A stretch of DNA of 52,752 bases from Candidatus Levyibacteriota bacterium (GTDB lineage: Bacteria > Patescibacteriota > Microgenomatia > Levybacterales > UBA12049), in assembly GCA_016182205.1 (NCBI GenBank), contig JACOXW010000011.1:1-52752 (forward strand), read 5' to 3'. The position numbers and the translations under genes were made by a program. Numbering within the stretch: the stretch's first letter is position 1; the number at the start of each line of letters is the position of its first letter. Under the pieces are notes generated by a model, which searched no databases, was not told the DNA's origin, and saw only the letters and a program-made list of their open reading frames with translations. Of the stretch, positions 47,144 to 48,131 are shown one piece after another.

Positions 47144-47584
47144 ATGAAAATTACCAATAAACGAGCGTTTTTTGAATATCAAATCGGAGACCGGATTGAA
47201 GCCGGTATCAACTTAACAGGCGCTGAGGTAAAGGCTGTAAAGCAAGGCCACGCTGATTTAACCGGAAGCTATGTACGGGTTATAGGAAGCGAGGCATATT
47301 TAGTAAATGCCCGTATTTTCCCTTACGAGTATGCCCGACCCGAAGGGTACGAGGAGAAACGAACACGAAAATTACTCATGCATAAACAGGAGATTATCTC
47401 ACTCAAATCCCGCACAGAAGGGGCAAACATCACCCTTGTGCCTCTTTCTTTATATAGCAAAAAGAACCTTTTGAAGCTAGAATTAGCCATAGGAAAGAGC
47501 AAAAAACAGTACGATAAGCGCGAGGCTATCCGCAAAAAAGATATGCTCAGAGAAAAGCTCCGAGATGAAGATATGTTAGCTTGA
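47144..47584 (+). CDS. smpB: SsrA-binding protein
   Basis: 'KITNKRAFFEYQIGDRIEAGINLTGAEVKAVKQGHADLTGSYVRVIG', 'KKQYDKREAIRKKDM'; start refined to MKITNKRAFF. Confidence 0.97.
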   Translation: MKITNKRAFFEYQIGDRIEAGINLTGAEVKAVKQGHADLTGSYVRVIGSEAYLVNARIFPYEYARPEGYEEKRTRKLLMHKQEIISLKSRTEGANITLVPLSLYSKKNLLKLELAIGKSKKQYDKREAIRKKDMLREKLRDEDMLA

Positions 47585-47617: not shown

Positions 47618-48066
47618 GGGGATGCATTGATTCGACAAATGCAGCACATTAAAAAACAGCAAGCCGACTTTGATAATTAGTCGTCCCGCTAAAGCGGGAT
47701 CCCGCCAATCGGCGGCGATAAAAAAGTATCAAAATAATAAATGCTGTTTCAAACCGCATTGAGGCTCTAAAGGCTGAGAAAGAAGCAATTCTTGCTGAGC
47801 TCTTCGGAGTCAGACAACCGGTTTACGCATAATCTGCGTAAACCTTTGTCTTGTTCATAGTATCTTTTCTCAACGGGATGCTGTGGGCATAAACACAGTT
47901 GGGAAAAAGGTAAGGAAAGTGGTTAGTACCTTACTGTTTTTATAACCTCAGTAGTATTTCGTCCTGTCGATTGGATAAACTTACTATGAATCTTTAAAAA
48001 TCGACTACGCTTGTAGATGTTTTTTAGGTACGCTTTTGGACTCCGGGTCACTCCCGGACATCTCCA
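47618..48066 (+). ncRNA. ssrA: transfer-messenger RNA (tmRNA)
   Basis: 5' GGGGATG pairs with 3' CATCTCC; 'GATTCGACA' D-arm region; PK1, tag ORF ending in TAA in H5 loop (GGTTTACGCA-TAATC-TGCGTAAACC); 'GGACTCCGGGTCACTCCCGGACATCTCCA' 3' domain; directly downstream of smpB. Confidence 0.93.
47684..47715. repeat. two-hairpin palindromic element inside tmRNA
   Basis: TCCCGC-TAAA-GCGGGA followed by CCGCC-AATC-GGCGG, read directly. Confidence 0.9.
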
Positions 48067-48073
48067 CACAAAA

Positions 48074-48098
48074 ACCCGCCTTTATAGGCGGGTTTTTT
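48074..48098 (+). terminator. rho-independent terminator of ssrA
   Basis: ACCCGCCT-TTAT-AGGCGGGT followed by TTTTT. Confidence 0.93.
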
Positions 48099-48131
48099 AT
48101 GACTCATTACCACACCTAATTATCCTATAGT

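Follow-up and report, generated by a model that had tools for sequence, protein, structure and literature searches.

Several kinds of small insertion are known within bacterial genes, some of them in tmRNA. Rickettsia palindromic elements (RPEs; Ogata et al., reviewed in PMC2229807) are summarised in that review as sequences of 105-146 bp with terminal inverted repeats; they occur in frame within genes for conserved proteins, with further cases reported there from tmRNA and RNase P RNA. REPs of the GTAG and CGTC superfamilies are palindromes of 20-40 bp, often arranged as head-to-head pairs, and some are intragenic (PMC3733652). The group I introns of ssrA occupy the T-loop site, have a mean length of about 300 bp and are removed by splicing (PMC11915505). 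As for pseudoknot PK1, tagging by the E. coli tmRNA persists when PK1 is swapped for a small stable hairpin (PMC3968760). Here we describe a 35-nt, two-hairpin insert in the PK1 loop of a tmRNA from Patescibacteria, very probably a copy of a small element dispersed in this phylum.

The window, i.e. the whole stretch of 52,752 nucleotides that was analysed, is contig C25 of a draft Levyibacteriota genome (G000; 584 kb in 40 contigs, 74% complete). On its forward strand, which carries all features of the window given below, ARAGORN places a tmRNA gene, ssrA, at 47618-48067; Rfam RF00023 matches it over its full length with 94.1 bits and ends it at 48069. Both tools call a complete tmRNA. The gene has tRNA-like ends, a PK1, a tag frame and a score above the RF00023 cut-off, and the SmpB partner is encoded next to it: ssrA directly follows smpB, which is intact by its translation (47144-47584, start codon approximate; PF01668 at 47150-47563, E 3.4e-46), with 33 nt between the end of one and the start of the other. 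The tag reading frame and its stop (47773-47832; ARAGORN and translation) lie 3' of PK1, and the encoded peptide is AEKEAILAELFGVRQPVYA according to ARAGORN. The tmRNA 3' end (48060-48069) reads CTCCACAC, so that the complete CCA tail is not gene-encoded; those of two other genomes of the class, G062 and G066, are similar. Downstream, CCCGCC-TTTATA-GGCGGG followed by a T run (48075-48099) forms the intrinsic terminator. By its sequence this hairpin is an ordinary terminator rather than a further copy of the element.

PK1 of the window is an H-type pseudoknot, with the pairings and coordinates given in the preliminary description. Stem S1 is formed by CGACT (47665-47669) and AGTCG (47679-47683), and stem S2 by TTGATA (47670-47675) and TATCAA (47727-47732). 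Both are backed by covariation: across 25 tmRNAs, 91.6% of the S1 and S2 cells are paired and 23 cells are changed on both sides, against a mean of 4.8 in shuffles and 2-6 in slid controls.

The insert occupies 47684-47718 in the last PK1 loop and consists of two abutting hairpins, TCCCGCTAAAGCGGGA then TCCCGCCAATCGGCGGCGA. Hairpin 1 (47684-47699, TCCCGC-TAAA-GCGGGA) is missing in relatives; hairpin 2 (47700-47718, TCCCGCC-AATC-GGCGG-C-GA) has one bulged C and can be compared with TCCCGCCATCGGCGGTGA of G062, a genome of the same family. A two-hairpin segment beginning at 47684 had been recognised before, with an extent of 32 nt up to 47715; it is in fact 35 nt long, because TC at 47700-47701 pairs with GA at 47717-47718 around the bulged C. 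Folding of the insert yields both hairpins, with an energy of -20.3 kcal/mol and a z of -3.5 relative to dinucleotide-shuffled sequences, and both stems also form in a fold of the whole RNA, by a method that cannot draw pseudoknots. What follows the insert is the native A-rich loop TAAAAAAG (47719-47726), equal in length and place to the 8-nt loops TTAAACAG or TAAAACAG of relatives. These eight nucleotides align with the complete loop of the relatives.

In an initial comparison with 50 relatives, most have such a short A-rich loop after the 3' strand of S1, and so do the tmRNAs nearest to that of the window. Searched with a covariance model built on the PK1 region, 82 genomes of the order gave 71 matches and 384 genomes of the class gave 309; PK1 lengths were taken for about half of the latter, among the matches listed. 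Nearly all other tmRNAs of the class surveyed are devoid of a two-hairpin PK1 insert, among these same listed matches. The insert of the window is not an isolated case: at least five other lineages carry differing two-hairpin inserts at the same loop. G043, of another family, was the one example among the first relatives, with TCCGCGAAAGCGAGATCTCGCCTTAACAGGCGGA at the equivalent position; G062, G066 and G106 emerged as length outliers among the matches listed; a Shapirobacterium record came from a pattern scan of genome contigs, whose matches fell mostly by chance in unrelated genes and included two records of real tmRNAs. All these tmRNAs are full-length matches in Rfam. The second hairpins of the window (TCCCGCCAATCGGCGGCGA) and of G062 are alike, while the insert stems differ across most carrier lineages. 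In a separate case, G155 (L132), the PK1 loop is enlarged by a different, single hairpin.

A tree of the tmRNAs, built on about 400 nt with the inserts removed and only weakly resolved, scatters the insert carriers without any cluster. Their nearest neighbours are insert-free: G024 for the window's genome, G042 for G043, G003 for G062, G028 for G066 and G046 for G106; for the Shapirobacterium tmRNA, which has a long branch, the nearest neighbour is hardly informative. As the carriers do not group in this short, weakly resolved tree, repeated independent gain appears the likeliest course, and several such gains would be the simplest reading of the sequences.

Hairpins of this design are scattered through these genomes. 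Of the 73 genomes of the family, 59 contain hairpins of the form TCCCGC...GCGGGA, whereas the reversed pattern has almost no matches; the window's genome has eight in this search and, under looser settings, 13, several of them doubled, e.g. TCCCGCGAAGCGGGATCTGGCTCCGCCAGA. As an exact 16-mer, TCCCGCTAAAGCGGGA has a single occurrence in that genome, and three other sites match it with one or two mismatches. Scanning sampled stretches for two-hairpin structures in general was discarded as a measure of the element: the yield was close to that of shuffled sequence and was inflated by runs of N in G066; only its TC..GA / TC..GA subset exceeded background. That subset led to a strict pattern, derived from the sampled stretches of four genomes: 30 nt, TCNNSC-NNN-GSNNGA twice (15+15; TCNNSCNNNGSNNGATCNNSCNNNGSNNGA). 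The strict element is present in 106 of the 384 class genomes, with up to 30 copies per genome; a sample of the phylum, also of 384 genomes, has it in 80. Its reversed pattern had no match in either set. Its stems covary. In 64 distinct copies, the pairs left free or half-free by the pattern (six per copy) are Watson-Crick in 353 of 384 instances, against a shuffle mean of 44%. Loop 1 is mostly purines and loop 2 mostly pyrimidines, so that the element reads alike on both strands. A second type of repeat, TCCCGCCAAGGCGGGATCAGAATGA, was seen in the window's genome (C23:3925-3949 and C40:11743-11767) and in G089.

The tmRNA insert of G106 (G106:C2:117-146) belongs to this family strictly, as one of the 12 strict copies of that genome. 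The genome of the window has five strict copies, those in gatA and zwf among them; the window itself has no match to the strict pattern even with two mismatches, its insert being a diverged form of 16+19 nt. It does consist of two abutting TC...GA hairpins with complementary stems, a looser criterion, and its membership is accordingly one of resemblance, in architecture, in the sequence of the stems and in the position shared with other inserts, and stays probable. A search of the genome for further copies, suggested earlier, yielded none identical to the window's insert, but two-hairpin copies of the same design in the genome, the class and the phylum. Together with the short loops of the nearest tmRNAs, these dispersed copies support what was first proposed, namely that the PK1 loop tolerates an interspersed palindromic repeat.

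Of roughly 34 copies examined in their context, many fall within a long reading frame that the 30 nt do not interrupt. Ten such frames are named as conserved families by Pfam, including GatA and Zwf of the window's genome, where one copy falls in gatA and another close to the end of zwf (L165:3449-3478, L155:5521-5550; G000:C10, G000:C34). Set against solved homologues, the element of CopA is exactly SAKGRSSFGR, a 10-residue gap in the homologue; it falls on a 9-residue gap in GatA and on a 12-residue gap in RecR. The alignment is ragged at the element in Zwf, and in thymidylate synthase the element lies within a longer unaligned stretch. From these alignments, an in-frame insert of ten codons is clear in CopA, and it has good support in GatA and RecR.

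Other copies adjoin tRNA genes (L099, L200, L215). At L200:1501-1530 (minus strand), the element replaces the expected 5' part of a second tRNA-Val copy, apparently truncated at the D-arm, beside an intact tRNA-Val. At L134:1830-1859 it stands between GTAGCTC and AGCTGG, a stretch resembling a tRNA D-arm without the downstream part. Inverted repeats flank the elements at L206:1501-1530 and L208:1501-1530, as if these had been inserted in the loop of a pre-existing hairpin or terminator.

The element presumably moves in the manner of a mobile element. Direct repeats flanking 40 copies exceed those of re-paired flanks (mean 5.9 vs 4.1, 0/5000). Six of the 40 (L112, L118, L124, L190, L196, L198) have repeats of 10-13 nt, mostly in AT-rich tandem sequence. 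A fixed target-site duplication is nevertheless argued against by the in-frame protein copies and by the tmRNA copies, at which none is evident; repeats flank some intergenic copies. Y1/RAYT transposases (PF01797), considered as the mover, show no clean co-occurrence with the element in 16 genomes: the transposase family is found in 11 of them, is absent from the carriers G000 (74% complete) and G343, and is present in G097 and G138, both free of strict copies. An exact 30-mer of the element has no match in viral contigs, which leaves carriage by phages unsupported for that variant.

We consider it very probable that the window segment is a copy of the dispersed two-hairpin element inserted in PK1, in a tmRNA that most likely works. 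A copy would have entered between the 3' strand of S1 and the A-rich loop. In the RNA, both hairpins would fold locally beside S1; neither S1 nor S2, nor the native 8-nt bridging loop, nor the stretch from PK1 to the resume codon would be altered. Because the hairpins are self-contained and the parts of PK1 unchanged, we infer that the tmRNA most likely still functions with SmpB; the local folding of its hairpins within a loop would allow a small repeat of mobile type to be tolerated. The working hairpin replacement of PK1 in E. coli (PMC3968760) makes such tolerance likely.

The hairpins could instead be native, grown by local duplication in the PK1 loop of some lineages and unrelated to the repeat. 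The misfit of the window copy to the strict element speaks for this, as does the single-hairpin enlargement of G155, by which the loop can evidently grow in other ways. Yet the inserts in tmRNA are built on the same TC..GA / TC..GA plan as the dispersed element, strictly so in G106, and the nearest tree neighbours are empty at the site, making local growth unlikely. Nor is the segment conserved in all close relatives or without copies elsewhere, the two observations by which the preliminary description had proposed to recognise native structure. Still less probable is an element already present in PK1 of a common ancestor. Such an origin would account for the one position shared by all carriers and for the alike second hairpins of G000 and G062; with insert stems that mostly differ, carriers scattered over a weakly resolved tree and most surveyed genomes empty, it would need many separate losses. 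An artefact of assembly or binning might be suspected in a draft genome this fragmented and incomplete, but is hardly credible: the flanks make up one unbroken tmRNA beside smpB, and the same kind of insert is found in five other assemblies, including the one-contig genome G066.

A refinement, compatible with insertion of the dispersed element, is that insertion was only the source of the hairpins and that they are kept for stabilising PK1. Four or five two-hairpin inserts in about 180 measured PK1 regions, among the matches listed, stand against well under 0.1 expected from random landing on an 8-nt target, by a rough estimate, and a stable hairpin can meet the function of PK1 (PMC3968760). 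Selective removal elsewhere with tolerance here, or a preference for the insertion site, would however give the same pattern, and we hold such selection to be possible rather than probable. It is equally tentative that the PK1 loop is a preferred or selectively favoured home of a phylum-wide element family, one that would have invaded conserved proteins as well as an essential RNA, and that the repeat is now a working part of the tmRNA in some Patescibacteria.

Insertion of the dispersed element would add a large uncultured phylum of reduced genomes to the known range of protein- and RNA-coding palindromes, for which Rickettsia is the best-known case, and would document natural insertions that recur at a single spot of an essential RNA. 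It opens testable questions, namely by what means elements this small spread and what amount of added structure PK1 tolerates or uses, and it flags many annotated proteins of Patescibacteria for in-frame inserts of ten residues. No description of the element was found in the literature searched, of incomplete coverage, including a 2025 tmRNA database paper.

Among known systems, the element resembles the RPEs, as reviewed in PMC2229807, in being a palindrome found in frame in proteins and in an RNA gene, that of tmRNA; at 30-43 nt, with two abutting hairpins and in another group of hosts, it differs from their 105-146 bp. With REP dimers it shares the pairing of small palindromes and the location of some copies within genes. 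Unlike REPs, it has no GTAG and ends in TC and GA (64 distinct strict copies), its CGTC is limited to some stem interiors and covaries away, and the strict form has 6-bp stems with 3-nt loops. Natural variation in the size of loops and pseudoknots among bacterial tmRNAs is a further parallel, except that here the extra sequence would come from a dispersed repeat family. As with ssrA introns and genomic islands (PMC11915505), foreign sequence appears to have been inserted recurrently into tmRNA genes. The window insert, 35 nt long and located in PK1, shows neither the T-loop site nor the core of about 200 nt or more of a group I intron; unlike those introns, the tmRNA inserts lie in PK1, measure about 30-43 nt and are presumably retained in the RNA.
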